Assembly (NCBI GenBank): GCA_002843155.1 | Contig: PGZD01000003.1 | Span: 1-64,000, forward strand | Length of the DNA stretch: 64,000 bases | Origin: Gammaproteobacteria bacterium HGW-Gammaproteobacteria-3 | Lineage (GTDB): Bacteria; Pseudomonadota; Gammaproteobacteria; Methylococcales; Methylomonadaceae | Direction of reading: 5' to 3' | In this document: positions 47,650 through 64,000 of the stretch, piece after piece | Layout: each line of letters begins with the position of its first letter | Position numbering within the stretch: position 1 is the stretch's first letter | Translations under genes and position numbers: made by a program | The notes under the pieces: generated by a model | The model's input: only the letters and a program-made list of their open reading frames with translations | Database searches by the model: none | Told to the model about the DNA's origin: nothing

Positions 47650-48612
47650 GTGAAATTGAACGTATTGGTATTAAGTTTGATTTTGTCTGTGACGGCGTCA
47701 ATCGCCGATACCGGGAATAAAAATGAACTGCAAATACAAATTCCAGGGCACTGGGTTTGGTCTGAGTTATCTTATCAAGCATCAAAGTGGCCCGCTGAAG
47801 CGCAAGTAGATTTTAGCTCTGAACGAGTTTCGGCAATGAACATGCCAACGAAATATGTTGTTAGTCCCCAAGGAATTCCTGTAAGCCCCAAAAAAAACGA
47901 CGTTCTGTTATTGCGAGCCAAAGTAAATCTGAAGCTCCCGTTACAGAGTGCCGATGATCAGTTTTTTGATGTCTGGTATGACCCGGATGATGGTGCCGCG
48001 TTAATGCGGGTTCATTGGCGACGGGGAGGGCGCCCCAAATGGAATGCCTATCGTTTTACCGATACGGGTGTTTTTCGCATCAAGCGTAAGCCGGGCAGTC
48101 ATGATGATGTGGTGCACTTGCCGAGTGAGTGGCGCGAGGAAGCCCGGTCATACTATAGCTATCAGGGCGGTCAACATGATTGCAACCGAGTTTCCGACCC
48201 GGTGGCGCTGTTTTATTTGCTTGCATCGAAAAGTGTATTATCAAGTTCAAAGACGACCGATATATGTGTGTTCGGAGAAAAGCACTTGCATCATGTGTCG
48301 GTCAAACAATCAAAGTCTCGGCGAGTAGCAGCAAATTTTCGCCTGGCCATTGACGGAAATGAATGGCGTCAACAAGGAGAGTACGACGTAACCGAATGGA
48401 CATTACGAGCGGTGGAAAGTGATGGTGATTCTGTGGAGCCCTTTAGTCTTCTGGGTTTACAGGGGGATATCCGGTTTCAGGTAGATCCTGTGTCGCACCT
48501 GCCTTTGATGTTCAGCGGGTCGATTTCAGGGTTTGGCCAGGTGGTATTCCAATTGACGCGAGCCTGTGGTTTTTCGCTGGATTCAGCTAAAGTCTCTGAT
48601 TTAAGTCCCTGA
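47650..48612 (+). CDS. Exported protein of unknown function
   Basis: The 320-residue protein has a signal peptide (MKLNVLVLSLILSVTASIA) and no membrane anchor, so it should be periplasmic. It starts with GTG after AGGAAGG. The sequence looks like a beta-rich domain, with blocks such as FFDVWYDPDDGAALMRVHWR and GDIRFQVDPVSHLPLMFSGS near the end, and a single pair of cysteines near 178 and 203. I do not recognise the family; the final GDIRF-DPVSHLP-SG block loosely recalls DUF3108 proteins. It is not clearly part of the following operon. Confidence 0.65.
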   Translation: MKLNVLVLSLILSVTASIADTGNKNELQIQIPGHWVWSELSYQASKWPAEAQVDFSSERVSAMNMPTKYVVSPQGIPVSPKKNDVLLLRAKVNLKLPLQSADDQFFDVWYDPDDGAALMRVHWRRGGRPKWNAYRFTDTGVFRIKRKPGSHDDVVHLPSEWREEARSYYSYQGGQHDCNRVSDPVALFYLLASKSVLSSSKTTDICVFGEKHLHHVSVKQSKSRRVAANFRLAIDGNEWRQQGEYDVTEWTLRAVESDGDSVEPFSLLGLQGDIRFQVDPVSHLPLMFSGSISGFGQVVFQLTRACGFSLDSAKVSDLSP

Positions 48613-48760: not shown

Positions 48761-48932
48761 CTATTATAATGGAGCGTCCGTCCGATAAATTTTCTGCGAT
48801 GAAGTCCGGCATGGCTGGGAAACATCCATGTGCCGATGTTGATCGATTCGAAACTGCCAGGTGTGAACCTGTATTGCCGAAGACGATCTCGGGGCGGGTT
48901 ATTATTTGAGAGATAGAATAAAGGGTAAATTG

Positions 48933-50756
48933 ATGCAACCGACTGTAAGTTCTCATGATCTTGCTTTACGACTTTCCGCGTTTGCAACGCTTTCCGAGGC
49001 GTTGGATTACGCGGCCCGTGGCGATACCGGGGTGAATTTTTACAATGGCCGGGGTGAGCTTTACGCCGCAATTTCCTACAGGGATTTGCGTGATCAGGCT
49101 TGTTCATTGGCCCAGCGCCTTTGTGGTCTCGGTATTGAACGGGGTGGTCGAATTGCAATGGTGGCCGAAACCACACCGGATTTGGTGCGGTTTTTCTGGG
49201 CTTGTCAATACAGCGGCCATGTACCCGTGACGCTTCCTGCATCGGTTCATCTTGGCGGACATGGCGCATTCGTCAGTCAACTGCGCGGGCTCCTGGAAAG
49301 TTGTAAAGCAGAAGCTGCCATGGCGCCGGCGGATTTACTGCCTTTTCTCAAAGAAGCCGCAATAGGGCTTGATTTACGTTTGGTTGGCAGTCCTGAAGCT
49401 TTTTATCAATTGCCGCCTGCCAATATTGAATTGGTTGAAGCCGCAAGTCATGAAACCGCCTATATTCAATATACCTCGGGGAGTACTCGTTTTCCGCGCG
49501 GCGTTGTCATCGATCATGCCACTGTCCTCACCAATATCAACGACATGGCATTGAATGGACTCAAACTAAATGATCAGGATCGGTTTGCGACATGGTTGCC
49601 TTTCTATCATGATATGGGGCTGGTGGCTTTTGTCATCATGCCCATGGCTACACAGCGCTCGGTGGATTTCATCGGTACCCGTGAATTTGCCATGCGTCCA
49701 CGTTTATGGCCGGAATTGATGTCGCGTAATCGCGCTACTATTTCGTCGGGCCCGCCTTTTGGTTATGATCTGGTGGCCCGCCGAGTGCGGGCCAAAGACA
49801 TCGAGCAATGGGATTTAAGTAACTGGCGGGTTGCCTGCGTGGGTGCCGAGCTGATACGACCCGGGCCGCTACGCCGCTTTGCCGAGGCCATGGCGTCGGC
49901 CGGATTTGACCCGAACACTTTTGTTGCCTGTTACGGCATGGCTGAATGTGCTTTGGCTATCAGCTTTTCTCCGCTAGGCGAAGAATTGGTATTGGATAAC
50001 ATCGATACCGAGCATTTGCAAAAACGCCAGGAGGCACGCAGCGTATCGGTTGAGCAGGCGGAACAGCAAGGCATTCGGCTGGCGCAGCATGTCGATTGCG
50101 GGCCGCTTTTGCCCACATTTGAAGTTTCTATCCGTGATGATAAAGGCCGGATTTTGCCTGATCGCCAGTGCGGCACCATTTTTTTGCGGGGCCCCAGTGT
50201 CATGAGTGGTTATTTTCAGAATCCCGAAGCGACTCGGGAAGTGTTGTCTTCGGATGGCTGGCTCAATACCGGTGATATTGGTTATCTTGTCGGAGGTCAT
50301 TTATTCGTTACCGGACGCCAGAAAGATATGATCATCATTCATGGCCGTAATATTTGGCCGCAGGATCTTGAATATGTCGCCAAGCGGTTTCCCGGTGTGC
50401 GTTACACCGATGTTGCCGCTTTCGCCGTGACAATGGACGATGATGAAGAAAAAGCCGCAATCGTAGTGCAATGCCGTGAACGGGATCCGGTAAAACGCGC
50501 CCAGTTGGTGCATGATCTGAAAGGCGAAATCCGGGCCGAATTCGGCATTGATTGTTTGGTTGAATTGGTCCCGCCGCAAACCCTGCCGCGTACTTCATCG
50601 GGCAAATTGTCGCGTTCACGCGCCCAGTTGGATTTTCTTGAGCGCAATCGTCGGCAAGCCCGACCTGCGGACAACGATGATGCTTCGTTTTCAACCTTGA
50701 CCCTATTGCCCAAACGATCTGTAGAGGTGGCTCATCAAGCTCAGCGTATAGCATGA
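48933..50756 (+). CDS. aasR: Fatty acyl-AMP ligase / acyl-ACP synthetase of the sphingolipid operon
   Basis: The 607-residue protein is an AMP-forming acyl ligase of the FAAL type. It has the P-loop QYTSGSTRFPRG near 182-193, PFYHDMGLV, the ACYGMAECAL motif and the C-terminal TGRQKDMIIIHGRNIWPQD. FAALs load fatty acids onto carrier proteins. It opens an operon with a reductase-like epimerase, an acyl carrier protein and serine palmitoyltransferase, so it probably loads the carrier used by Spt, as AasR does in Caulobacter ceramide synthesis. The ATG at 48933 has AAAGGG; a TTG at 48906 is less likely. The symbol is by analogy. Confidence 0.83.
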   Translation: MQPTVSSHDLALRLSAFATLSEALDYAARGDTGVNFYNGRGELYAAISYRDLRDQACSLAQRLCGLGIERGGRIAMVAETTPDLVRFFWACQYSGHVPVTLPASVHLGGHGAFVSQLRGLLESCKAEAAMAPADLLPFLKEAAIGLDLRLVGSPEAFYQLPPANIELVEAASHETAYIQYTSGSTRFPRGVVIDHATVLTNINDMALNGLKLNDQDRFATWLPFYHDMGLVAFVIMPMATQRSVDFIGTREFAMRPRLWPELMSRNRATISSGPPFGYDLVARRVRAKDIEQWDLSNWRVACVGAELIRPGPLRRFAEAMASAGFDPNTFVACYGMAECALAISFSPLGEELVLDNIDTEHLQKRQEARSVSVEQAEQQGIRLAQHVDCGPLLPTFEVSIRDDKGRILPDRQCGTIFLRGPSVMSGYFQNPEATREVLSSDGWLNTGDIGYLVGGHLFVTGRQKDMIIIHGRNIWPQDLEYVAKRFPGVRYTDVAAFAVTMDDDEEKAAIVVQCRERDPVKRAQLVHDLKGEIRAEFGIDCLVELVPPQTLPRTSSGKLSRSRAQLDFLERNRRQARPADNDDASFSTLTLLPKRSVEVAHQAQRIA

Positions 50757-51718
50757 AAGGCCGCGTCGCGGTCACCGGCGCAACGGGATTCGTAGGCATT
50801 GCCTTGCTTCGGCATCTGGTCGGTGCAGGCTGGCAGATTCGTGCGCTGGTGCATAAACGCGCAATACCCGCCGATCTTGCGGCTTGTGTTGAAATTGTCC
50901 GGGGCGGCCTCACTGATAAAAAGGCGCTGCTGCAATTGGTCAAGGGGGCCGATGCCGTGGTTCATGTCGCCGGTAAGGTGCGTGGACGAAGCGCCGAAGA
51001 TTTTCATGCTATCAACGTGCAGGGTGTCGAAAGTCTGGCTGAAGTTGCGTCTACGCAGCCGATTCCTCCCCGCTTTATCCTGATCTCCTCGCTCGCGGCG
51101 CGTGAACCCCAATTATCTCACTATGCAGCTAGTAAGCGCGAAGGTGAATTTGCTTTGGCTCAAGTTGCGGCGGATTCCACCATGGCCTGCGCAGTATTGC
51201 GGCCGCCGGCAGTTTATGGGCCGGGCGATTTGGAGCTGAAACCGCTTTTCGATGCCATGGCGGCTGGTTTCGCGCCTTTGTTAGGCGTTAAAAAAGCCCG
51301 TTCTAGCGTTATCCATGTCGATGATCTTGCGCGCGCCATCGGGCGGCTTTTGGAGCAGCCTCAGGTGCAAGGATGCTTTGAGCTGCATGATGGTTGTGCC
51401 TTGGGTTATAGTTGGGATGACATCGCCGACGCTGTGTCCAGCGTGACCGGGCGACGCTCTATCAGAGTGCGGGTTCCGGCTGCGTTGTTGCGCACTCTGG
51501 CGCGTCTGAATGCGTTCGCTGCGGGCGTCCTGAATTATCAGCCCATGCTGTCGCCGGGTAAAGTCAACGAATTACGTCATCCGGATTGGTGTTGCGACAA
51601 CCGGGCCTTTACCGAAGCCACCGGCTGGCAACCCGAAATCAATTTACACGAGGGCTTGCGGCGATTGTTGTCTTTCGGCCCGACATCGCCCGCCACCGAA
51701 ACATCGGATGGTCTCTGA
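50753..51718 (+). CDS. cerR: NAD-dependent epimerase/reductase, putative 3-oxosphinganine reductase CerR
   Basis: The 321-residue extended SDR protein has the Rossmann motif TGATGFVG at 8-15 and the catalytic YAASK (Tyr124, Lys128). The start overlaps the ligase stop by four bases (ATGA). In Caulobacter, an epimerase-like SDR of this kind (CerR) reduces the 3-oxo group of the sphingoid intermediate. The same job is inferred here from its place between acyl ligase and carrier protein. On sequence alone it could be any sugar-nucleotide or steroid-type SDR. Confidence 0.8.
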   Translation: MKGRVAVTGATGFVGIALLRHLVGAGWQIRALVHKRAIPADLAACVEIVRGGLTDKKALLQLVKGADAVVHVAGKVRGRSAEDFHAINVQGVESLAEVASTQPIPPRFILISSLAAREPQLSHYAASKREGEFALAQVAADSTMACAVLRPPAVYGPGDLELKPLFDAMAAGFAPLLGVKKARSSVIHVDDLARAIGRLLEQPQVQGCFELHDGCALGYSWDDIADAVSSVTGRRSIRVRVPAALLRTLARLNAFAAGVLNYQPMLSPGKVNELRHPDWCCDNRAFTEATGWQPEINLHEGLRRLLSFGPTSPATETSDGL

Positions 51719-51725
51719 GGAAAAT

Positions 51726-51977
51726 ATGGAAAAATATGAGGATATTGTGCAAGCCCTTTTTGAGGACTTGTCACGTTTTCGCCGGGAAAAAATAAACCTG
51801 AGTGAACGGACTGATTTAGTGGCGGATTTGGGCATGGAGTCCATCAATGTCATGGAGTTGCTGCAAGAGATTGAAGACCGTTACGACATTTCAATTCCCT
51901 TGAATATCATGCCGGACATTCGTACAGTCGAAGATCTGGCGCGGCAGATTCAACACTTAACTATCGATAGAGCATGA
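51726..51977 (+). CDS. acpR: Acyl carrier protein of the sphingolipid operon
   Basis: The 83-residue protein is an acyl carrier protein with the pantetheine attachment site DLGMES (Ser39) and the usual four-helix layout. The ATG at 51726 is preceded by GAGGAAA; an ATG at 51708 inside the previous gene is less likely. It overlaps the spt start by four bases. A dedicated carrier next to Spt suggests that Spt uses acyl-ACP rather than acyl-CoA. It would need a phosphopantetheinyl transferase such as the one at 9.0-9.7 kb. Confidence 0.87.
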   Translation: MEKYEDIVQALFEDLSRFRREKINLSERTDLVADLGMESINVMELLQEIEDRYDISIPLNIMPDIRTVEDLARQIQHLTIDRA

Positions 51978-53152
51978 GTATTACAGAACGCTTCGCGGAA
52001 CTGGAAAACACGCGCCGTTCGCTGGCTGAAGTCAACGCCGACCCAGGTAGCCTAATTATAGAGCGCATTCTGTCTGCTACCGAAGCAATCATAAAAGGTC
52101 GCCGTACGGTGCTGGCGGGCACCAATAACTATTTGGGCCTTACCTTTGAAGCGGGCGGCATTGAAGCTGCCAGTCTTGCACTGCACGAGCAAGGCAGCGG
52201 TACTACTGGGTCGCGCATGGCCAATGGCAGTTTTGCCAGTCATATCGCTTTGGAACAGGCTTTTGCCGAATTTTACGGCTATCCTGGGGCGATGATTTTC
52301 TCCACCGGCTATCAGGCCAATCTGGGTGTGCTGGCGGGCCTGGTCCGGGCCGGTGATAAAGTGCTGATCGATGCCCACAGCCACGCCAGTATTTATGATG
52401 GCTGTAAACTGAGCGGCGCCGAATTTTTTCCTTTTCGTCATAATGATCCGGATGATTTGCACAAAAGGTTGCGCCGGTTGGGAGCTGCCGCAAAAGGCGC
52501 TCTGGTCGTGGCGGAAGGGCTTTACAGCATGTTGGGTGATACCGCGCCTTTAGCCGAGGTGATGGCGGTAGTCGATGACTATGCTGCGTATTTGATGGTT
52601 GATGAAGCGCATTCTCTCGGTATTTATGGTGAACATGGCCTGGGTGTCTGCGAGGCTGCGGGAATTTTGGATAGAGTGGATTTTATCACCGGGACTTTCA
52701 GTAAAAGCCTGGGTTCCTTGGGCGGTTTTTGCGTCAGCCGGCACGAGCAGCTTAATCTTTTGCGTTACGGCAGTCGGCCCTATATTTTTACTGCTTCCGC
52801 CAGTCCTTCCACCATTGCTTCGGCGCATTGGGCGCTACAACAGATAAAGACGCGACCGCAATTGCGTGAACGGCTCTGGGCCAATGTCGATCGGCTTTAT
52901 CAGGGCTTATTGAAAATGGGTTATCATTTAAGTGCGGCTCCAAGCCCTGTAATTTCTATTCGTGTAGAGGTGCTTACCGAAGCGCTAAGCATGTGGAATG
53001 CCTTGCTGGAATACGGGGTTTATGTCAATCTGGTATTGCCGCCGGCATCGCCGGATGGCGCGCCTTTATTGCGTTGCAGTGTGAGCGCCGCCCATACTTT
53101 TGAGCAAATCGATACTATTGTTTCAGCTTTCGCCGCAGCGAGGGAAAGCTAA
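51974..53152 (+). CDS. spt: Serine palmitoyltransferase
   Basis: Spt is a PLP enzyme of the alpha-oxoamine synthase family that condenses serine with a long-chain acyl thioester, the first step of sphingolipid synthesis. The 392-residue protein has the PLP lysine K244 in GTFSKSLGSLGGFCVS, DEAHSLG at about 213-219, and RPYIFTAS shortly after. The GGFCVS and RPYIFTAS words match bacterial Spt rather than BioF (8-amino-7-oxononanoate synthase) or Kbl. The operon partners support this. It is the last gene of the operon and is followed by a hairpin. Confidence 0.87.
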   Translation: MSITERFAELENTRRSLAEVNADPGSLIIERILSATEAIIKGRRTVLAGTNNYLGLTFEAGGIEAASLALHEQGSGTTGSRMANGSFASHIALEQAFAEFYGYPGAMIFSTGYQANLGVLAGLVRAGDKVLIDAHSHASIYDGCKLSGAEFFPFRHNDPDDLHKRLRRLGAAAKGALVVAEGLYSMLGDTAPLAEVMAVVDDYAAYLMVDEAHSLGIYGEHGLGVCEAAGILDRVDFITGTFSKSLGSLGGFCVSRHEQLNLLRYGSRPYIFTASASPSTIASAHWALQQIKTRPQLRERLWANVDRLYQGLLKMGYHLSAAPSPVISIRVEVLTEALSMWNALLEYGVYVNLVLPPASPDGAPLLRCSVSAAHTFEQIDTIVSAFAAARES

Positions 53153-54219: not shown

Positions 54220-54981
54220 TTGAGTAAAGCTATTATCCTCAGCGCCGGACAAGGCAGCCGTTTACTGCCGTTGACCGCCAATCGACCGAAATGTCTTTTG
54301 CCAATCAATGGCCGTAGTTTGCTCGAATGGCAAATCGATATGCTGTTGAAAGCCGGTTTCGAGGACATTGTCGTCGTTGTGGGATTTTGTGCCGAGCAAG
54401 TCGAAAATCTGGTCGCGCAAAACTATCCTGAACAAGTGCGTACGCTTTACAATCCTTTTTATCAGGTTGCCGACAATATGGGTACCTGCTGGCTCGTCCG
54501 CAATGAAATGGATCGCGATTTCGTATTGATCAATGGCGATACATTGTTCGAGCAGGAGGTCGTTGAAACCTTGCTGAAGGGCGCCCGCCATGCCATTACC
54601 CTGGCCACCGATCACAAGGACGAGGCCTATGACGACGATGACATGAAAGTCACGCTCAATGGCAGGCAGTTATTGAATGTCGGCAAACAGATTCCGGCCG
54701 AACATATTCACGGTGAGTCTATCGGTATGTTGCGTTTTCAAGGCGAGGGTCCTGCGCTGTTCCGCGAACATCTGGATCGTGAGATGCGCCGTGAGGCTTC
54801 GGTGAAGCGCTGGTATTTGTCCACCATCGCGCAATTGGCGCAAACGGGGCAGGTGGGTATCCAGTCCATTAAAGGCTTGGCCTGGGGCGAAGTGGATTGC
54901 CAGGCCGATTTAGTCAATGCCGAGCAATTGACGGCGAACTGGTTTGAAAACGAACTCGATGCGCCAGCATGCGCCGACTGA
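54220..54981 (+). CDS. Sugar-phosphate/phosphocholine-type nucleotidyltransferase
   Basis: The 253-residue protein is a nucleotidyltransferase with GQGSRLLPLT at 10-19, PKCLLPI at 23-29 and the metal site NGDTLF near 108-113. Proteins of this length and type include CTP:phosphocholine or inositol-phosphate cytidylyltransferases as well as glucose-1-P types. The CDP-alcohol phosphotransferase 7 kb downstream makes a cytidylyltransferase forming a CDP-activated head group the favoured reading. The start is TTG after GGAG. Confidence 0.8.
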   Translation: MSKAIILSAGQGSRLLPLTANRPKCLLPINGRSLLEWQIDMLLKAGFEDIVVVVGFCAEQVENLVAQNYPEQVRTLYNPFYQVADNMGTCWLVRNEMDRDFVLINGDTLFEQEVVETLLKGARHAITLATDHKDEAYDDDDMKVTLNGRQLLNVGKQIPAEHIHGESIGMLRFQGEGPALFREHLDREMRREASVKRWYLSTIAQLAQTGQVGIQSIKGLAWGEVDCQADLVNAEQLTANWFENELDAPACAD

Positions 54982-55108
54982 TGCGCTTTCTGCCCGCCCG
55001 TCTTCGATTTGGCAGTTTAAGCCCCGGCTCCGAAATCGGTTGACAGGGTTTGACGCCAACAGTTTGTTACGAGGCGATGGGGTTATTTATACGCTAACGA
55101 GTTACAGG

Positions 55109-55936
55109 TTAGTCGGGCGCTTTCATTTGCCCGGATACAATCGTTTCAACCAATGCTCGGTCAGCCGGGGTATCCACATCCAATCCGGCTTCCGGGGTTG
55201 TTAAGGGCACCATGCCGACCTCTGCGCCAACACGCCTGGAAAGCCTTTCAAGGGCTTCTTTCAAGGTCAAATGTCCGCTGAGATAGCGCAACAAAAGCAT
55301 GGGTCCCAGCGCCACGGCCCAGCGCCAGGGCGTTTTGCGCTGACTGTCCAGTCTGCGCCAAAACGCCAGTACGTCGGCCGCCTGCGGGGTGCGCAAGGCG
55401 AACAGATTACACGAACGGTAAGCGCCATCCTGAAGTCTCAGTAAAGTACGTTTTAATCCCGGATACTGGGCGTCGAGAATGGCCCCTGCCAGCAGCGCGA
55501 CTAAAAAATCGTTTTGCGCCCGATCCACTTGGTCACAAAATTCAGCAATGATCTCCGGTGTCAATAAAGCATGATCGGCGGTGGTCACCAGGCAGCGGCG
55601 ACCTGCCTCCACTTGCTGAAAGGCATAGAGTGCGCTTTCGCTGGGACTGTCGCCGACGGGAAGCCATTCCACGCCTGCTTCTGCAAGTGCCGGAGCCATC
55701 TCCGGAGAAGCTTCTAAAAGCGCTTCGTGCGGTCCGCTGATAAGGATTCGGTCGATTCGACCGCTGCCGCATAAAGCATCGACAACCCTCAGCAGCATGG
55801 GTCGTCCACCGATCGGAATTACCGCTTTGAGATTGACGCCCGCCTCGGCACATAAAGGACTGTCACCGGGGCGCTGGCCCGCCAGCACAATGGCGGTGTA
55901 TTGTAGTTGCGGGTGTTGGCTATCTGCTTGGGGCAT
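55109..55936 (-). CDS. MobA-like NTP transferase
   Basis: The 275-residue protein has an N-terminal MobA/IspD-type nucleotide-binding domain: YTAIVLAGQRPGDSPL at 13-28, VIPIGGRPMLLRVVDAL near 39-55, and TTADHAL near 117-123. The C-terminal part ends in LTTPEAGLDVDTPADRALVE, typical of this fold. The C-terminal half has an added hydrophobic segment. It starts four bases after the GNAT-like gene's stop and so is in one operon with the putative ceramide synthase. The activated substrate is unknown. Confidence 0.75.
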   Translation of the reverse strand: MPQADSQHPQLQYTAIVLAGQRPGDSPLCAEAGVNLKAVIPIGGRPMLLRVVDALCGSGRIDRILISGPHEALLEASPEMAPALAEAGVEWLPVGDSPSESALYAFQQVEAGRRCLVTTADHALLTPEIIAEFCDQVDRAQNDFLVALLAGAILDAQYPGLKRTLLRLQDGAYRSCNLFALRTPQAADVLAFWRRLDSQRKTPWRWAVALGPMLLLRYLSGHLTLKEALERLSRRVGAEVGMVPLTTPEAGLDVDTPADRALVETIVSGQMKAPD

Positions 55937-55940
55937 GGGC

Positions 55941-57104
55941 TTATTTGGTTATAACTTTTTCATAAATACGGTAAAGCTTGTAAACTTCAGCGCCCAAGGT
56001 TTCAAGTATGCGTCGCAAACGACGGTTGTCTTCCAGAATCCAGGACAGCTCAAGTTCGGCTACTTTACGGCTCAGTATCGGTTCGCGAATGGCTTCAAAC
56101 AAGCTGTAAACAGCCGCAGTACCCAGATTGGTGCGATGATATTGTTTGCGCAGCCCCATCAGGGCGACCCGTGCGCGGCTGGGATGGCGCACTTTAAGGC
56201 GCCACAGCAGTTTGAGCCAGCCAAACGGCAGCAAGCGTCCGTTCAGATCGGCAATCGCTTCGTTGATGTCGGGAAGAATGACGATCATTGCCGCCGCTTC
56301 GCCGTCGATTTCAGCAATCTGAATGTAATCGTCCGGCAGTAAAAATTTAAGATTATTGCCGATTTCATGGAATTCGGCTTTGGTGAAAGGAATGTATCCC
56401 CAGTTATCGGTCCAAGCATCATTGAAGATGTCGCGTAGGATTTCCATGTCTTCGCTGTATTTTGCCCGGTTCAGTGAGCGCACCTGAAGGTTTTTGCCGG
56501 CTTTTCTGACTGCGCCTTCCATGACTTTAGGCGTTTGAAAGCCGAAAGTATCGAGCATGTAGGCGACCATATTTTTTACGCCGGAATAGCCGCAATGCTC
56601 CAGTTCGTCGGCGTAGTAAGGCGGGTTGTGGTTCATCATGAACATCGGCGGGCGCTCGAAACCGTCCACCAATAAACCGCACTCTTCATTGATTGACAGG
56701 TTGAACGGGCCGCGCGCGCATTCCGCGCCTTGTTCGCGTAGCCAGTTTTCGGCTGTTGTCAGTAATGCCTGGAAAACTTCAGTATTCTGTTCAGCTTCCA
56801 GTAGGCCGAAAAAGCCCATGTGCTCGTTGTGCGTCTGGTTGTAAAGCGTGTCGATTTGGGCGCTGATGCGCCCGACCGGCACACCGTCGCGAAAGGCAAG
56901 CCAGGCGCGCATTCTGCCGTGTTCAAAAAAAGGTTTTTTCGCCGACAAATGCTGTTGCCGCTCCAGATTGAGCGGGGTAATCCAGTTGGGGTCATTGCGA
57001 TAGAGCCTTTGAGGCAAGGCTAAAAATTCGCGCCAGTCGCCGTTCTCACCGGTCGGTGCTACTTTTAGATTGCCATCGCTCTGCATGTCGGGCGTTGTGG
57101 TCAA
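55941..57104 (-). CDS. bcerS: GNAT-like N-acyltransferase, putative bacterial ceramide synthase
   Basis: The 387-residue protein belongs to a GNAT-superfamily group often annotated only as N-acetyltransferase. Features include RNDPNWITPLNLERQ near 34-48, the GPFNLSINEECGLLVDGF segment, and the HNPPYYADELEHCGY segment. Length and motifs agree with bacterial ceramide synthase (CerS/bCerS) as described in Caulobacter, which N-acylates the sphingoid base. The nearby spt operon makes this the likely role. It has no membrane segment. It is divergent from the HIT-lptF-lptG genes. Confidence 0.72.
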   Translation of the reverse strand: MTTTPDMQSDGNLKVAPTGENGDWREFLALPQRLYRNDPNWITPLNLERQQHLSAKKPFFEHGRMRAWLAFRDGVPVGRISAQIDTLYNQTHNEHMGFFGLLEAEQNTEVFQALLTTAENWLREQGAECARGPFNLSINEECGLLVDGFERPPMFMMNHNPPYYADELEHCGYSGVKNMVAYMLDTFGFQTPKVMEGAVRKAGKNLQVRSLNRAKYSEDMEILRDIFNDAWTDNWGYIPFTKAEFHEIGNNLKFLLPDDYIQIAEIDGEAAAMIVILPDINEAIADLNGRLLPFGWLKLLWRLKVRHPSRARVALMGLRKQYHRTNLGTAAVYSLFEAIREPILSRKVAELELSWILEDNRRLRRILETLGAEVYKLYRIYEKVITK

Positions 57105-57211
57105 TGCAGACTCCGGGCAAGCGCTGCCGTAGCCGGAAAGTGAGTGGTATCAGAGTTCTGTTTTACTTTCATCAAAGATTTTTTTCATGTGTCGCTGAAA
57201 TTAAAGTTGTG

Positions 57212-57240
57212 TTGTCACGACTTCATTGGGTCGGTATCAT
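57212..57240 (+). promoter_or_regulatory. Promoter of the HIT-lptF-lptG-like operon
   Basis: TTGTCA (57212-57217) and TATCAT (57235-57240) are 17 bases apart, 60 bases before the first gene. They fit sigma-70. Confidence 0.55.
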
Positions 57241-57299
57241 AACCTTTAGAAGACGATGGCTCAAGCATCCTTAGGATTCCGGCTGGCAAATAATAGTGT

Positions 57300-57749
57300 G
57301 TGATGATGAAAATGACAGAAAATGTAACCATGAAAAAATTTGGCGCGCCGGCCACCGAGATCCGGGTTTTTGAGCATTGGGTCGTATTGTTGCGTCCGCA
57401 GCAGGTGACTTTGGGTTCTTTGGTACTCATCGCTACCGATAACGCCACCGCCTTCAGCGACCTTAGTCCCGCTGCGTTTACCGAACTGCACCAGGCGACG
57501 CGTGAAATCGAACACGCTTTGTCCAGCGCCTTCGGCTATGACAAAATCAACTACCTGATGCTGATGATGGTCGATCCTGATGTACATTTTCACATCCTGC
57601 CCCGCTATCGCCGAGCGCAGCTTTTTCAAGGTCATGACTTCTTCGATTATGGCTGGCCGGGGGCGCCCAAACTGGATGTAGCCAACCCAACCGATAGCGT
57701 TCTGAGCCAACAGATCCTCAAGCATTTACAAAGCCATTGGCCGAGCTGA
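57300..57749 (+). CDS. HIT family hydrolase
   Basis: The protein, up to 149 residues, has the histidine triad as DVHFHILPRY near residues 93-102 and belongs to the HIT superfamily of nucleotide hydrolases/transferases. Several in-frame ATGs (57300, 57303, 57312, 57330) compete for the start and none has a clear ribosome site. The next gene starts three bases after its stop. In this setting it may act on a nucleotide-linked head-group precursor, but that is a guess. Confidence 0.8.
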   Translation: MMMKMTENVTMKKFGAPATEIRVFEHWVVLLRPQQVTLGSLVLIATDNATAFSDLSPAAFTELHQATREIEHALSSAFGYDKINYLMLMMVDPDVHFHILPRYRRAQLFQGHDFFDYGWPGAPKLDVANPTDSVLSQQILKHLQSHWPS

Positions 57750-57752
57750 TCC

Positions 57753-58844
57753 GTGATACTTGAGCGTTATCTCATGCGGGAGGTCATGCGCCCGTTAATT
57801 GGCATGTTGGCAATGCTCATCGTGATTTTTGCCACCTACAGTTCGTCGCGGTTCCTAGCGGATGCCGTGGAAGGTCTGTTGGAAACCCGGACCGTGCTTA
57901 TCCTCACCGGGCTTAAAGCGCTGATTGCACTTGAAGTGCTCATTCCGGTTTCCTTGTACCTTTCGGTCATGGCGGCGCTTGGCCGCCTTTACAACGATTC
58001 TGAAATCACCGCCATGCAGGCCAGTGGCCGAGGGCCTGCATGGCTGGTTAAAACGGTCGCTACCCTGGCGCTACTGTTGGCATTGCCGACCGCGCTTTTG
58101 TCGATACAAGTGCGGCCTTGGGCTTATGCGCTGAGCTATTCGATCGAAAAACAAGCGGAAGCGAAATCCGATCTCAGCCGGCTTTTGGCGGGCCACTTCT
58201 ATCACAGCCAGGACAGTACCCGTACCATTTTTGTCGAAAAGCTTTCCGAAGACGGCTTGCTGATGGATAAGGTTTTTGTGCGCATGGAAATGGCAGGATC
58301 GCATTGGGCTATCGCGGCCGACCACGGAACCCGGACTGTCAATGATGCGACCAGCCAGCAAATTCTGACGCTGTTCGATGTTCATGCTTACCATTTGTTA
58401 CCCCTCGACAAGCCTTCTATGATTGGACGCTTTAACCGGGTCACCCTGAATATTACCCCGCCCAATGTCAAACCGGTGGAGTACAAAAGCAAATCGGCGT
58501 CCATGGGTGAGCTGCTGGTCTCGGATAACCTGGCGGACAAGGCGGAATTACAGTGGCGCCTGTCGACGCCGGTATCGACTATCATCATGGCCTTGCTTGC
58601 CGTACCCTTGTCCCATGTGCGGCCACGGCAAGGCAAATACGCCAAGTTACTGGCGGCAATTCTGATTTACGCGGTGTATTACAATCTTATCGGCATGGCC
58701 AAAACCTGGGTAGGACACGGCAGCCTTCCGGTGATCCCGGGCATCTGGTGGGTTCCCGCGCTGCTGGTGCTGCTCCTGTTCGCTTTGCTGGCGCCCGCGC
58801 CCGAAAAATTTTGGGTCTCGCGTCAGGCCAGGAAAAGTCCTTGA
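57753..58844 (+). CDS. LptF/LptG family permease, first of a pair
   Basis: The 363-residue protein has the LptF/LptG layout: N-terminal membrane segments, a central periplasmic beta-jellyroll domain (about 130-265), and C-terminal membrane segments, starting MILERYLMREVMRPLIG. The start is GTG. LptF and LptG form the permease that extracts LPS from the inner membrane. Canonical lptFG usually lie near pepA, which is absent here. In this setting a role in moving the sphingolipid is attractive but unproven. Confidence 0.83.
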   Translation: MILERYLMREVMRPLIGMLAMLIVIFATYSSSRFLADAVEGLLETRTVLILTGLKALIALEVLIPVSLYLSVMAALGRLYNDSEITAMQASGRGPAWLVKTVATLALLLALPTALLSIQVRPWAYALSYSIEKQAEAKSDLSRLLAGHFYHSQDSTRTIFVEKLSEDGLLMDKVFVRMEMAGSHWAIAADHGTRTVNDATSQQILTLFDVHAYHLLPLDKPSMIGRFNRVTLNITPPNVKPVEYKSKSASMGELLVSDNLADKAELQWRLSTPVSTIIMALLAVPLSHVRPRQGKYAKLLAAILIYAVYYNLIGMAKTWVGHGSLPVIPGIWWVPALLVLLLFALLAPAPEKFWVSRQARKSP

Positions 58845-58862
58845 CATGGTTCTTTGGTCTTT

Positions 58863-59933
58863 ATGAAAATTCTTGACGTTTACATTGCCCGTAATGTACT
58901 GCTGGGCTTTCTGCCGGTATTGTTGCTGATGCTTTCCCTGTTCAGCTTCATCGCCTTGGTCGAGGCGATGGAGGATGTCGGCAAAGGTCAGTTCCAGCTT
59001 ATCGATGCCATCAAAGTCGTTATTCTCACCCTGCCATTACGCGCCCTGGATTTGATGCCGACCGCCGCCTTGCTGGGCAGCGTGCTGGGTTTGAGCTGGC
59101 TCGCCAATCACGGTGAACTGATGGCCATGCGGGCGGCCGGATTTTCGGTCGAGCGTATTGCCTGGGCCGTGCTCAAGGTGGGGCTTTTTCTCATCGCTTG
59201 CGCCATCGGTCTGGGGGACACGGTGGTGCCAAGGTCTGAGCAAATGGCTACGGTAATCCAGGCTAAAACATCTCCCGGCATAACCAGCCTGGGTACCGAG
59301 GCTGATTTTTGGTCGCGTCAGGGCCAAAGTTTTATCAATGTTCGCCGGTTGCAGGATAACGCCCTGCCTGCCGATATTGAGCTGTTCAATTTTAATGACC
59401 GTGGCGAACTGCAAAGTTTCATACACGCAAACCAGGCCCGGTTTTTAAGTACCGAGCGCTGGTTGCTTGAAGACGTGACGATAAAACGTTTTTTTAACGA
59501 TGGCGCCGAGAGTATCGAGCATGCCGAACAATTGGAATGGCAGTCTTTTCTTACCTCGGCTCAGATGGACATCCTGCTGCTGCCGCCGGAAAGTTTGCCC
59601 AGCGCCGATCTTTATCACTACATCGGCCATCTGCGCAGCAGTGGCATGGACCCTTTGCGCTATGAGCTTGCCTTATGGCAAAAAATCAGTTTGCCGCTGA
59701 AAATCGGCATCATGGTGTTGCTCGGGATCTCGTTCGTATTCGGCTCCGTGCGCAGCGTGGCCATCAGCCAGCGGGTGCTGGCCGGTGCCGTGGTGGCCAT
59801 TTTATTCTATCTGGTCGAGAGGATGAGCGGCTATGTAGGGCTTTTATACCGGTTTAATCCGATATTGACCGCCATTGTTCCGGCGGCGCTGTTATTGATC
59901 GCCGCCGTCTGGCGTTTCCGGCAGATTCGTTGA
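58863..59933 (+). CDS. LptF/LptG family permease, second of a pair
   Basis: The 356-residue protein starts MKILDVYIARNVLLGFL, the typical LptG-like beginning, and has the same layout of membrane segments around a periplasmic domain. The motif RALDLMPTAALLGSVLGL matches the LptG coupling region. It lies 18 bases after its partner. No extra ATPase gene (LptB-like) is in the operon, so a pair of permeases would have to share LptB or use another ATPase. Confidence 0.83.
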   Translation: MKILDVYIARNVLLGFLPVLLLMLSLFSFIALVEAMEDVGKGQFQLIDAIKVVILTLPLRALDLMPTAALLGSVLGLSWLANHGELMAMRAAGFSVERIAWAVLKVGLFLIACAIGLGDTVVPRSEQMATVIQAKTSPGITSLGTEADFWSRQGQSFINVRRLQDNALPADIELFNFNDRGELQSFIHANQARFLSTERWLLEDVTIKRFFNDGAESIEHAEQLEWQSFLTSAQMDILLLPPESLPSADLYHYIGHLRSSGMDPLRYELALWQKISLPLKIGIMVLLGISFVFGSVRSVAISQRVLAGAVVAILFYLVERMSGYVGLLYRFNPILTAIVPAALLLIAAVWRFRQIR

Positions 59934-59943
59934 CAAGAGGCAA

Positions 59944-60690
59944 TCAGGCGTCCGCCACAGGCTTCCAGTCACGCATATTTTTTTTGGCGTCCTGTACATA
60001 AGCGCTGCGCCGGATAATGGCATTGAGCAGGTTATTCACCAGGCGTCCGAGCGGACGCAAAGGGCGGTCCACATCGAAAAACAATACGACGCGCGTTTCG
60101 TCGGTATCGTTTTTGACTTCATGTTCGAAATAATCATTGAAAACGATGCACTTGCCTTCGTCCCAATGCAAAATCCTGTCATCGACGCGGATATGGCAGC
60201 GCTCCCGCGCTTTGGGCACCATCAAGCCCAGATGAATGCGAATGATGCCGTTGGTTGGGCCTTTATGCGGCGGAATATGATAGCCGGGCGCGAGAATGGA
60301 AAACCAGGCGTTTTCGATATGCGGTACCGCATCGAGCAGGCGCGCAGTTTCCGGGCAGCGCAGACAGTTGTCGTCCACGCGATAACCGAAACCGTAAAAA
60401 ACGAAAGTTTTCCAGTTGTCGCCTTTTGAAATGCGGTGTTGATCGGGCGAAAGCTCATGAAACGCCGGAAGAGCGTCCTGATGCTGGAGGATGCCGTCCA
60501 ATTCCGTGCGTATTTTTTGCCAATTGGCTTCAAATTCGGCGGTAAAAGGAAACACGTTTTTGTCGAATACGGGCTCGTCACCTATCAGCGATTGCTGGGC
60601 GATGAAGCGGCTTACCGCACGAATCAAGCGTTTGCCTAATTTTTTGATTTTTTTGCGCCGATAGGTGCGGAACTGATCGAGGGCACTCAT
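59944..60690 (-). CDS. Aspartyl/asparaginyl beta-hydroxylase family dioxygenase, LpxO-like
   Basis: The 248-residue protein is a Fe(II)/2-oxoglutarate dioxygenase of the Asp/Asn beta-hydroxylase family. The iron and co-substrate region is HIPPHKGPTNGIIRIHLG, with a second iron histidine in NDYFEHEV. LpxO, from the same family, adds a 2-hydroxyl group to lipid A acyl chains, and 2-hydroxy acyl chains are common in bacterial sphingolipids. Hydroxylation of the ceramide is therefore a reasonable inference. The ATG at 60690 has CAGGAG; a start at 60711 is less likely. Confidence 0.82.
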   Translation of the reverse strand: MSALDQFRTYRRKKIKKLGKRLIRAVSRFIAQQSLIGDEPVFDKNVFPFTAEFEANWQKIRTELDGILQHQDALPAFHELSPDQHRISKGDNWKTFVFYGFGYRVDDNCLRCPETARLLDAVPHIENAWFSILAPGYHIPPHKGPTNGIIRIHLGLMVPKARERCHIRVDDRILHWDEGKCIVFNDYFEHEVKNDTDETRVVLFFDVDRPLRPLGRLVNNLLNAIIRRSAYVQDAKKNMRDWKPVADA

Positions 60691-60914
60691 GAATAAAACT
60701 CCTGGAAACATTATAAATAGTAATGATATATCAATCTGTCAGATTCAGGGAAAGGAAATCATTTCATGGACTTTTCAGTCGGTTTTTTCATCTGACAAAA
60801 CGCGATGCCGACGTACCGAAAAAAAGCTTTTTAATCTGATGCGTTAAGTAAACGCGGACAAAACCGTCATGCCGACCTGAATACCTTGAGCGCAGAGGCC
60901 GAAACATCTGATGA

Positions 60915-61865
60915 TTAGCGTTCGCGGAGCAGCAGGATATTCTGTGTCCAGGTTTGGGTAAAGTCCAGTCCGCTCGGGTTTAACGCCCTCGCCGTTATAT
61001 TCAGCGCCCAACCCTCGGGCGCAGGTTTTATCCGGTAAAGATGATAGGCGGCGCGTTCAGCCTTGGCGGATGAAGCCGACGGTACGCCGAAAACCGGCGC
61101 TATGCCGCACACCGTAGCCAATTCACCGGTGTGTTTTTTATGGCCGTGACCGTGCAGCACCAGTTCGACGCCGTGCTCACCCAGCACGGTTTGAAGTTTG
61201 GCGGCATCAAGCAAGCGTTTGCGCCAAATGACAGCGTTATCGAGCACCGGATGATGCAGCATCACGACTCTGAATAAGCCCATCTGGCGCGTCCGCTCAA
61301 GTATTGCCGCCAGCCGCGCTAATTGTTCGGGGCCGAGTGTGCCGATGGCAAGCCCCAGCGCCGAAGGCCGGGCGCTGGATAAGCCAATCAATGCCATATT
61401 GCCTCGAATTCGAAGCCAGGGAAAAGCAGATTGCGCCGCACCAGCGGCAGCGTTCGGCTTGGCGTCATCGCCCGCCCAGTAGGGATGCCAATAGGCCGCA
61501 CCCGCCTCCCATGCGCCGCGCACATAAGCTTCGTGATTACCCGGAATGACGCCGACGCAGTCCGGCGCGCCAAGTTCGGCCAGCCATGCGGCGGCCTGTT
61601 TAAACTCGGCTTCCAGTCCCAGATTGGTGAGATCGCCGGTCACTATGATTTGCTCGGGCCTTTCCGCGTGCAGGTCTGCCACCAATTGTTGCAAAACTTC
61701 GAAGCGGTGACGGTGGCGGCGGTGGCGATACCAGGACAAAAAACCAAACATGCGTTTATTAAGCAGCATGGCCAGGGGAATCCCGCCGGTTAACGGTAAA
61801 TGCGGATCCGAAAAATGGGCGAGGAGCTGTTCCGAGGATGCGCGGGGCGCTTTAGGGCTTGTCAT
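60915..61865 (-). CDS. Metallophosphoesterase
   Basis: The 316-residue protein is a calcineurin-type phosphoesterase with FSDPHL at 18-23, VTGDLTNLG near 75-83, GNHEAYVRG near 109-117, LHHPV near 202-206, and VLHGHGHKK near 236-244. The order resembles CpdA-like and lipid-acting phosphoesterases. The substrate cannot be told from the sequence. Given the neighbours it may act on a phosphorylated lipid or head-group precursor. It is divergent from the CDP-alcohol transferase gene with a 269-bp gap. Confidence 0.82.
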   Translation of the reverse strand: MTSPKAPRASSEQLLAHFSDPHLPLTGGIPLAMLLNKRMFGFLSWYRHRRHRHRFEVLQQLVADLHAERPEQIIVTGDLTNLGLEAEFKQAAAWLAELGAPDCVGVIPGNHEAYVRGAWEAGAAYWHPYWAGDDAKPNAAAGAAQSAFPWLRIRGNMALIGLSSARPSALGLAIGTLGPEQLARLAAILERTRQMGLFRVVMLHHPVLDNAVIWRKRLLDAAKLQTVLGEHGVELVLHGHGHKKHTGELATVCGIAPVFGVPSASSAKAERAAYHLYRIKPAPEGWALNITARALNPSGLDFTQTWTQNILLLRER

Positions 61866-62114
61866 AAGATAGCGCGCCGACGGTTTTTTATAGGTTGGAG
61901 CCGCTGGGCTTTTTTCAGTGCCATGTTTGATTAAAAGTTGTTAAATAATACGTTGCGTTGCGTCGCAGTGATGCTGACGTGTATGCAGTTTAGAGGCGGT
62001 TAATTCAAGCATAAAAAGTCAAGCCAGCCCTGTCTTGTAAATATGGCTTTTTACCACAACAACCCGCATAATAGCCATTTTTGTCTTGCGATCTGTTTGT
62101 ATGAGATCGATTTA

Positions 62115-62123
62115 CCCCCCCCC
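62115..62123 (+). repeat. Poly-C tract (9 bases) just before a start codon
   Basis: Nine C in a row end 11 bases before the ATG at 62135. Tracts of this kind can change length by slippage and affect expression. The spacing places it in the leader, where the ribosome site would be. Confidence 0.6.
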
Positions 62124-62134
62124 ATTTTACCGCC

Positions 62135-63364
62135 ATGAAAAATTACGCATTCCTGATCAATGAAAGCCCTGTAAAACTATGGGGACTGTCGTCGCGGGAG
62201 CGGCTGACCCGACAACTGGCGCAAGTCGGCGTCACCGATATTCTGACCCGACTCGACCAGGCTCCTCAGGACGCCAAAATTATTATAGTGCGCATGGACT
62301 ATCTTTTCCCCGACCGGGTGCTGCGCACATTGGTGGGCACCGAAGCAACATTGCTCAGCGTCCCGGCAGCCGGAGGCGAGATTCCGGTTGCCGCCACCGT
62401 TGTCAGCCAAAATGTTGACCAAGCGCTCGCCTGGCTATCCGCAGCAGACACTGCGCCTGAATTCGATGGGACGATGGCGCGCCTCACTCCGGAAACGCTG
62501 GTCGGCGATTACGATTCCAAGCTGAGAAAATTAGCGCCCCCGAAAGTGTTACCGATTAGTGAAAGCAACCGGGAAGTATTGGAAAACGAGCTGTTTACCG
62601 GTGTTTACAAAGGCATTACCGATTTAATTACCAAATGGGTTTGGCCGCGTCCCGCCCGCTGCGTGACGCGTTGGTGTGCTGAACGCGGCATACAGCCTAA
62701 TCATGTTACCGGCTTGAGTTTAGGTTTGACGCTATTGGCCGGTTGGGCATTTATGGAACAATATTGGACTTTGGGTTTGGCAGCGGCCTGGATCATGACT
62801 TTTCTCGACACGGTCGACGGCAAACTTGCGCGGGTAACGGTGACTTCCAGCGCATTCGGCAATATTTTCGATCATGGCATCGATTTACTGGCGCCGCCGG
62901 TGTGGTATGTGCTCTGGGGGCTGGCTCTGGGTGAAGGCGGCTATAACCCGGGCATCATGGCTGTTGCCCTCGATACCACCATACAATTGACCGTGATAGG
63001 TTATATTGTCGGCCGCGTCGCTGAGGGTGCTTTTCAGCTCTTTGGCGAATGTTCAATGTTTGCCTGGCGTCCTTTCGACTCCTTCTTCCGCCTCATTACG
63101 GCTAGGCGCAATCCCAATTTGGTGTTGCTGAGCGTATCTGTCCTCGCAGGTCGCCCCGATCTGGGGTTACTGGCGGTCGCGCTTTGGACTGGCCTTTCTA
63201 CCGTGATTTTGCTGGTACGCCTCGGCATAGGGCTGAATGTGGGCGTCATTAAAGGACAACCGGTCATTTCCTGGCTTGGGCAGCCGGAACAGGTGGCGAC
63301 TAACAGCCTCGCTGCGGATTGGTTTACCGATAAACAGACGGATTCCGTCCGCGTGGCTGAATAA
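62135..63364 (+). CDS. CDP-alcohol phosphatidyltransferase with extra N-terminal domain
   Basis: The 409-residue protein has an N-terminal domain of about 160 residues and a C-terminal membrane domain. The latter holds the complete CDP-alcohol phosphotransferase motif, with D225, D228-G229, A232-R233, G242, D246 and D250. The N-terminal domain begins FLINESPVKLWGLSSRERL and looks like a reduced nucleotidyltransferase-type fold, recalling bifunctional inositol-phosphate cytidylyltransferase/phosphotransferase proteins, but the nucleotide motif is not intact. It is a good candidate for attaching a phospho-alcohol head group to ceramide or diacylglycerol. Confidence 0.82.
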   Translation: MKNYAFLINESPVKLWGLSSRERLTRQLAQVGVTDILTRLDQAPQDAKIIIVRMDYLFPDRVLRTLVGTEATLLSVPAAGGEIPVAATVVSQNVDQALAWLSAADTAPEFDGTMARLTPETLVGDYDSKLRKLAPPKVLPISESNREVLENELFTGVYKGITDLITKWVWPRPARCVTRWCAERGIQPNHVTGLSLGLTLLAGWAFMEQYWTLGLAAAWIMTFLDTVDGKLARVTVTSSAFGNIFDHGIDLLAPPVWYVLWGLALGEGGYNPGIMAVALDTTIQLTVIGYIVGRVAEGAFQLFGECSMFAWRPFDSFFRLITARRNPNLVLLSVSVLAGRPDLGLLAVALWTGLSTVILLVRLGIGLNVGVIKGQPVISWLGQPEQVATNSLAADWFTDKQTDSVRVAE

Positions 63365-63370
63365 ATCGAT

Positions 63371-64000
63371 ATGAAGTTTACTGAAGAGACACGCACGCTG
63401 ATACGGCGGCAACTCGATCGGCCGTTACCGCCAGAACTCGACAGTTTCGCCGAGTCTCTGCGGCAACGCTACGGCGAATCGGTTCTGGCGATTCTCTATT
63501 ATGGTTCCTGCCTGAGACGGGGTCAGCATCAGGAAGGTTTGAACGATTTCATCGTGGTGGTGGACAATTACCGGCGCGCTTACGGCACGTTGTTACCGGC
63601 TTTGGGCAATGCCATGCTGCCGCCGAATGTTTTTTATCTGGAAACGCAGTCGGAATCTGTGCGTCTGCGCGCCAAATACGCCGTCGTCAGTTTGGCTCAA
63701 TTGCAAAGGCTCGCCCGGCCTGAACGCCTGCAACCTTATTTCTGGGCGCGGCTGGCGCAGCCGGTCGCTTTACTTATGGCGCGTGATGATAGCCGGATTG
63801 CCGTCGAAGCGGTTTTACTCGATGCACAGCGGGCTTTCATCACTAATGTCCTGCCTGCTCTCCCTGCTGTTTTTCAACCGCTGCAAGTGTTCACACAGGG
63901 CTTGCAACTGACTTACGCCACCGAATTTCGTTCCGAACGCAGCGCCGCCGTCGAACAACGCGTACTGGCCGAACAGGATTTCTACGAACAAATAGTAACA
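63371..64000 (+). CDS. Tam41-like cytidylyltransferase (partial, cut by window end)
   Basis: The open frame starts at ATG 63371, seven bases after the previous stop, and runs 210 codons to the window end. It has a nucleotidyltransferase motif LYYGSCLR near 42-49, followed by LNDFIVVVDNYRRAY near 57-71. This recalls Tam41, a phosphatidate cytidylyltransferase that makes CDP-diacylglycerol. The pairing with a CDP-alcohol phosphotransferase fits: one makes a CDP-activated lipid, the other adds the alcohol. The match is from memory of motifs only and should be treated as tentative. Confidence 0.65.
   Translation, partial: MKFTEETRTLIRRQLDRPLPPELDSFAESLRQRYGESVLAILYYGSCLRRGQHQEGLNDFIVVVDNYRRAYGTLLPALGNAMLPPNVFYLETQSESVRLRAKYAVVSLAQLQRLARPERLQPYFWARLAQPVALLMARDDSRIAVEAVLLDAQRAFITNVLPALPAVFQPLQVFTQGLQLTYATEFRSERSAAVEQRVLAEQDFYEQIVT

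Follow-up and report, generated by a model that had tools for sequence, protein, structure and literature searches.

Which head group is placed on the ceramide encoded near the end of this stretch, and by what route? The window, 64,000 nucleotides from Gammaproteobacteria bacterium HGW-Gammaproteobacteria-3, lies on contig C121, which has 79,557 bases and belongs to a genome of 3.13 Mb (G000). In a preliminary description made from the letters, two nucleotidyltransferases, a HIT hydrolase, a CDP-alcohol phosphotransferase, and a Tam41-like protein were placed beside ceramide genes and read as a phosphosphingolipid head-group module that uses a CDP-activated intermediate and transfers a phospho-alcohol. 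The coordinates and family calls were right, and sequence comparison supports the function. The module very probably makes an anionic phosphoglycerate ceramide (CPG, probably CPG2) that is exported to the outer membrane, with the chemistry of Caulobacter but without the Caulobacter kinase.

The CPG/CPG2 cluster of Caulobacter crescentus covers CC_1152-CC_1168 and contains cpgA-D, spt, cerS, cerR, and lptF2/G2 (PMC11324152, PMC12275187). CC_1152 is CpgD, which uses CTP and phosphoglycerate to form CDP-glycerate (PMC12275187). A CofC-like nucleotidyltransferase (CC_1153), CerS (CC_1154), LptG2/LptF2 (CC_1155/1156), and a phosphoesterase (CC_1158) are also encoded, while CC_1159 (CpgA) and CC_1161 (CpgC) have a CDP-alcohol phosphotransferase and a CDP-diacylglycerol synthase domain, respectively (PMC11324152). 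The ceramide kinase CpgB is CC_1160 (PMC10331486). With genes of the window named by their lower coordinate, 54220 corresponds to CpgD, 55109 to CC_1153, 55941 to CerS, 57753/58854 to LptF2/LptG2, 60915 to CC_1158, 62135 to CpgA, and 63371 to CpgC, all in a shared neighbourhood. Of the six head-group proteins of Caulobacter, five thus have a relative in the cluster. The correspondence covers CC_1152-CC_1165, the stretch that the comparison took in.

The tie to sphingolipids was surveyed in 274 genomes of the same class, with a strong CpgA match set at E below 1e-60. Such a match was found in 11 genomes, and all 11 have both CerS and CpgC (Fisher p about 6e-15 and 1e-16, respectively, values that ignore shared ancestry). 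CpgD-type proteins (205 bits or more) are in 14/14 CpgA genomes and in 0/8 CerS genomes without CpgA. Because CpgA always occurs with CerS and CpgC, and CpgD exactly where CpgA does, the module is assigned on this comparison to sphingolipids, not to ordinary phospholipids. The same genes standing apart from sphingolipid genes in relatives, which the preliminary description had named as the finding that would speak against it, were not seen among the 11 genomes with strong CpgA. A role in ordinary phospholipid, osmolyte (di-myo-inositol phosphate), or Bacteroides-type inositol/ethanolamine sphingolipid synthesis is very improbable. CpgA and CpgD do resemble the two halves of IPCT-DIPPS, and CpgA has weak matches to models of phosphatidylinositol phosphate synthase, but the co-occurrence with CerS and CpgC is strict, the phosphoglycerate-contact residues of CpgD are conserved, and three other CDP-alcohol phosphotransferases of G000 are free for housekeeping. 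The phospholipid and osmolyte roles were rejected on the co-occurrence and the CpgD residues.

Three genomes (G080, G205, and G127) have CerS, the CC_1153-like protein, the phosphoesterase, CpgB, and CpgC, with CpgA and CpgD both absent. This pattern agrees with the published account, in which the second phosphoglycerate is added by CpgA and CpgD. By the same pattern, the CC_1153-like protein and the phosphoesterase would seem to act in the first step, since they are kept with CpgB and CpgC where CpgA and CpgD are absent; this conflicts with published Caulobacter mutants, which put CC_1153 and CC_1158 in CPG2 formation (PMC11324152). A glycosyltransferase-like frame (possibly ELM1-type) lies beside CpgC in the clusters of these genomes (L085, L086, and L087), which may make only CPG or a glycosylated form.

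Crystal structures of CpgD name its ligand-contact residues (PMC13228409); they were not found among the PDB sequence matches listed, and the residues were matched by motif spacing. R16, K26, N90, T93, N110, D112, M147, K161, S170, and W201 of CpgD correspond to R14, K24, N86, T89, N105, D107, M142, K156, S167, and W198 of 54220, which are invariant or near-invariant in 12 orthologues; the exception, T89, is T or S in most of them. The match argues strongly, if indirectly, for a CpgD-type enzyme. The second nucleotidyltransferase gene, 55109, adjoins cerS, the same placement as that of CC_1153.

Protein 62135 has an intact CDP-alcohol phosphotransferase motif DxxDGxxARxxxxxxxxGxxxDxxxD, DTVDGKLARVTVTSSAFGNIFDHGID, and nearly all motif residues are invariant across 63 sequences. 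Its predicted model (pLDDT 94) aligns with AF2299 across the two domains (Foldseek 1.1e-10; VIA Z 23.9, 318 residues, rmsd 3.7). The N-terminal domain alone (about residues 1-130) is cytidylyltransferase-like (Z about 10), with the shrunken fold also present in AF2299, and has no GxGxR loop. The earlier term "degenerate extra domain" is therefore correct, and the domain is probably inactive. In the Nitrospirales loci L118 (~13.4 kb), L125 (~11.5 kb), and L135 (~3.8 kb), a second CpgA-related gene follows CpgC.

Protein 63371 on its own gave no Pfam match. Tam41_Mmp37 is matched by 6/14 members of the CpgC family (best 3.9e-11), a profile finds the Tam41 structure 6ig2 (9.5e-6), and the predicted fold of a CpgC homologue (L146, pLDDT 90) has Tam41 6ig4 as its best PDB match (1.1e-10). 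The Tam41-like identity proposed earlier is thus confirmed, with the structure check run on the homologue. Y, G, S, and D of the YGS...D nucleotidyltransferase core are invariant in 51 CpgC sequences.

The sixth head-group protein, CpgB (DAGK_cat, GGDG motif), was not found in G000 by profile search. When the complete genome was searched with DAGK_cat, the sole hit was an NAD kinase below threshold, adjoining a recN-like frame, while the Caulobacter control gave a match. In the 80 named CpgA loci compared, CpgB usually stands directly after CpgA, between cpgA and cpgC; in the window, these two genes are adjacent with a gap of 6 bp. CpgB is lacking throughout fourteen genomes that have spt, CpgA, and CpgC, namely G000, G264, G247, and the genomes of L120, L121, L155, L158, L160, L161, L169, L172, L175, L191, and L192. 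Spt relatives with 53-57% identity are in 13/13 of the others. The CpgB profile gives 107 bits or more for true CpgB and 49 or less for other kinases, and the DAGK-type matches in the CpgB-less genomes, all 49 bits or less, were rejected as CpgB. Inspection of the gap frames in 12 CpgB-less loci revealed no recognisable kinase, and not all of these frames were profile-searched. In the isolate Pseudomonas umsongensis DSM 16611 (L175), cpgA and cpgC overlap and no CpgB-type kinase is in the 6.7 Mb genome, whereas in its close relatives P. serbica and Pseudomonas sp. KK4 the two genes are separated by cpgB. On a quick CpgA tree, the presence of CpgB needs 8 changes, 7 of them forced by well-supported branches.

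It is quite unlikely that CpgB is present in this organism but lies outside the assembly or is too diverged for detection. G000 is in 135 contigs, 12/14 CpgB-less cases besides P. umsongensis are draft or metagenome-assembled genomes, where single cases can be wrong, and CpgB lies elsewhere in the cluster or genome of L138, L147, L193, L140, L178, L182, and L154. However, the completeness estimate of G000 is 100%, the 6 bp gap leaves no room for the gene at its usual place, P. umsongensis lacks it in a genome where cpgA and cpgC overlap, and the profile scores are well separated. A general assembly artefact is unlikely because of the cpgA-cpgC adjacency, the isolate case, and the recurrence.

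How, then, would the head group be started? Ceramide-1-phosphate is probably still formed by another kinase, and DgkA is the sole candidate found in G000. The aligned CpgB-less loci retain CpgC with its invariant residues; its substrate therefore probably persists, which makes a substitute kinase likelier than a bypass. A head group built without any ceramide kinase is unlikely. CpgA would then take phosphoglycerate from CDP-glycerate and attach it directly to ceramide, in the manner of choline phosphotransferase, which uses CDP-choline and diacylglycerol, and CpgC would act on a later intermediate, not on ceramide-1-phosphate. CpgB was lost repeatedly while CpgA and CpgD stay, and the best single-sequence solved relatives of CpgA, choline/ethanolamine phosphotransferases, do such reactions. 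Against this, CpgC would lose its presumed substrate and yet is kept in 14/14 CpgB-less genomes, the CpgA tree shows no split by kinase status, and Caulobacter CPG requires CpgB and CpgC, not CpgA (PMC11324152, PMC12275187).

With a substitute kinase, the route would have six steps. AasR, AcpR, Spt, CerS, and CerR would give dihydroceramide (1). In place of CpgB, another kinase would convert the ceramide to ceramide-1-phosphate, the likeliest being a lipid kinase of broad range, for example DgkA (2); Escherichia coli DgkA can phosphorylate ceramide in vitro. CpgC, with its Tam41 fold, would form CDP-ceramide from CTP and ceramide-1-phosphate, and CDP-ceramide would take up (phospho)glycerate to give CPG (3); the metallophosphoesterase may strip an extra phosphate here, and the second nucleotidyltransferase would act somewhere on the route. 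CpgD would form CDP-glycerate from CTP and 2-phospho-D-glycerate (4), CPG as acceptor would displace CMP from CDP-glycerate on CpgA to give CPG2 (5), and LptF2/LptG2 would pass the lipid outwards (6).

Several points weigh against this scheme. The orthology to Caulobacter is drawn from published descriptions, domain content, gene order, and motif spacing, the substrates are deduced from sequence, and the reactions of CpgA and CpgC are unproven in Caulobacter too. DgkA is in G000 and in 10/11 tested CpgB-less genomes, but also in 7/8 tested genomes with CpgB or in most of the controls' relatives, and it is therefore permissive, not positive, evidence for the substitution; as a marker of CpgB loss it is uninformative, being in nearly all genomes. 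Also, one CpgB-less genome (G274, locus L120) has no DgkA, though it has other DAGK-type kinases.

Table 1. Genes of the ceramide and head-group cluster in the window, with the match or observation that supports each name.
Feature	Coordinates	Strand	Support
AasR-like fatty acyl-AMP ligase/acyl-ACP synthetase	48906..50756	+	NCBIfam NF006624, 742 bits, over cut-off; conserved in cluster
CerR-like NAD-dependent reductase	50753..51718	+	Pfam Epimerase 3.6e-26; conserved in cluster
AcpR-like acyl carrier protein (DLGMESINVMEL)	51726..51977	+	frame read
Spt, serine palmitoyltransferase	51974..53152	+	Aminotran_1_2 3.3e-48
CpgD-like CTP:phosphoglycerate cytidylyltransferase	54220..54981	+	NTP_transf_3 E=4.6e-15
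CC_1153-like second nucleotidyltransferase, weakly CofC-like	55109..55936	-	NTP_transf_3 1.2e-13; TIGR03552 CofC 0.0079
CerS, bacterial GNAT-fold ceramide synthase	55941..57104	-	Acetyltransf_1 4e-9; orthologues in same cluster
HIT-family hydrolase	57300..57749	+	HIT 1.3e-4, just over cut-off
LptF2-like export permease	57753..58844	+	LptF_LptG 4.1e-59
LptG2-like export permease	58854..59933	+	LptF_LptG 6.2e-69
AspH/OlsC/LpxO-like lipid hydroxylase	59944..60711	-	Asp_Arg_Hydrox 1.1e-52; OlsC model 245 bits, under its cut-off 450
CC_1158-like metallophosphoesterase	60915..61865	-	Metallophos 1.7e-12; conserved beside cpgA
CpgA-like CDP-alcohol phosphotransferase, degenerate N-terminal cytidylyltransferase-like domain	62135..63364	+	CDP-OH_P_transf 5.6e-9
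CpgC-like Tam41-fold nucleotidyltransferase	63371..64000 in window, continuing on contig C121 to 64324; 317 aa	+

The ceramide and head-group genes, open frames in the order of Table 1, span 48906-64324. The module runs past 64000, as had been expected, but by only 324 bp; 3' of its end a different gene set begins, RlmH-like, Maf-like, and RNase G-like by sequence. CerS, the LptF/LptG pair, the AspH-type gene, and the metallophosphoesterase also lie within 54220-64000 and had not been listed before. Promoter and terminator scans gave nothing useful. The HIT gene is in 23/80 named loci and in a Roseomonas plasmid cluster, and an AspH-type gene is in 14/80. The AspH-type enzyme of the window is a possible N-acyl 2-hydroxylase of ceramide. 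In the Roseomonas cluster, a sterol-desaturase-type gene beside CerS takes the place of the AspH-type gene, and hydroxylation of the ceramide acyl chain may be the task of both types of enzyme. G000, G264, and G247 suggested that AspH marks CpgB loss, but this was rejected, as 9/14 AspH loci have CpgB.

Directly upstream of aasR, at 47650-48612, a probable secreted protein of 320 aa without a Pfam match is encoded. Its relatives are in or near the sphingolipid clusters of L087, L121, L142, L145, L157, and L165, and it is a possible unnamed component of the pathway. An MsbA-type exporter (45713-47482; TIGR02203, 760 bits, over cut-off) is also near the ceramide genes. ABC transporters are near the clusters of several relatives as well, and such transporters could be the flippase.

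The gene set recurs, mostly in the same order, in Gammaproteobacteria, Betaproteobacteria, Desulfobacterota, Nitrospirota, and Alphaproteobacteria, so the grouping is beyond chance. CpgA was found in only 1/26 sampled genomes of the family of G000 (G000 itself) and in three from another family of the same order. The cluster is also on plasmids of Pseudomonas, Diaphorobacter, and Roseomonas, and its horizontal acquisition is likely. On plasmid pPNP1 of Pseudomonas sp. JS425 (L228), CPG2-type genes adjoin sul1, intI1, IS6100, and Tn-type genes, and the cluster can therefore travel with resistance genes. G000 encodes a full-length methane/ammonia monooxygenase subunit A (contig C50, 13577-14290), and its host is therefore probably a gammaproteobacterial methanotroph.

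In Caulobacter, CPG2 can replace lipopolysaccharide, and it has been proposed as a target of polymyxin. CpgB, the ceramide kinase, opens the published scheme, and its repeated loss from otherwise intact clusters shows that the kinase step is replaceable or bypassable; the closely related Pseudomonas strains with and without CpgB are a natural test. Tying CpgD and CpgA together as one unit, and placing the second nucleotidyltransferase and the phosphoesterase with CpgC, helps to order the unassigned steps. The pathway is extended to a probable methanotroph and to plasmids.

Among known systems, the module had been said to differ from those of Caulobacter and Bacteroides. For Caulobacter this is mostly wrong, as the cluster matches the CPG2 cluster gene by gene; what holds is a difference not named then, the absence of CpgB from cluster and genome. 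Also, the window cluster holds an AspH-type lipid hydroxylase, while Caulobacter uses a distant DesA-type enzyme, CC_0202. The annotated alphaproteobacterial Roseomonas plasmid cluster (nucleotidyltransferase, CerS-position gene, LptF/G pair, HIT, metallophosphoesterase, CDP-alcohol transferase, DAG kinase family, and hypothetical gene) has the order of CC_1153-CC_1161. AF2299 and IPCT-DIPPS of Archaeoglobus have the two-domain architecture and fold in common with CpgA, but with only 12-17% identity, and CpgA is without the GxGxR nucleotide motif and has sphingolipid genes as partners. CpgC has the fold and YGS...D core of Tam41, the mitochondrial CDP-diacylglycerol synthase, at 18% identity, with ceramide-1-phosphate or a derivative as its presumed substrate. 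In Bacteroides, a CDP-alcohol phosphotransferase finishes the inositol and ethanolamine phosphosphingolipids, whereas CerS and the Cpg proteins here are proteobacterial enzymes. This is a known Caulobacter-type pathway found in a new host, where the first head-group enzyme is missing; the recurrent loss of that enzyme appears undescribed, going by searches of one open-access library.

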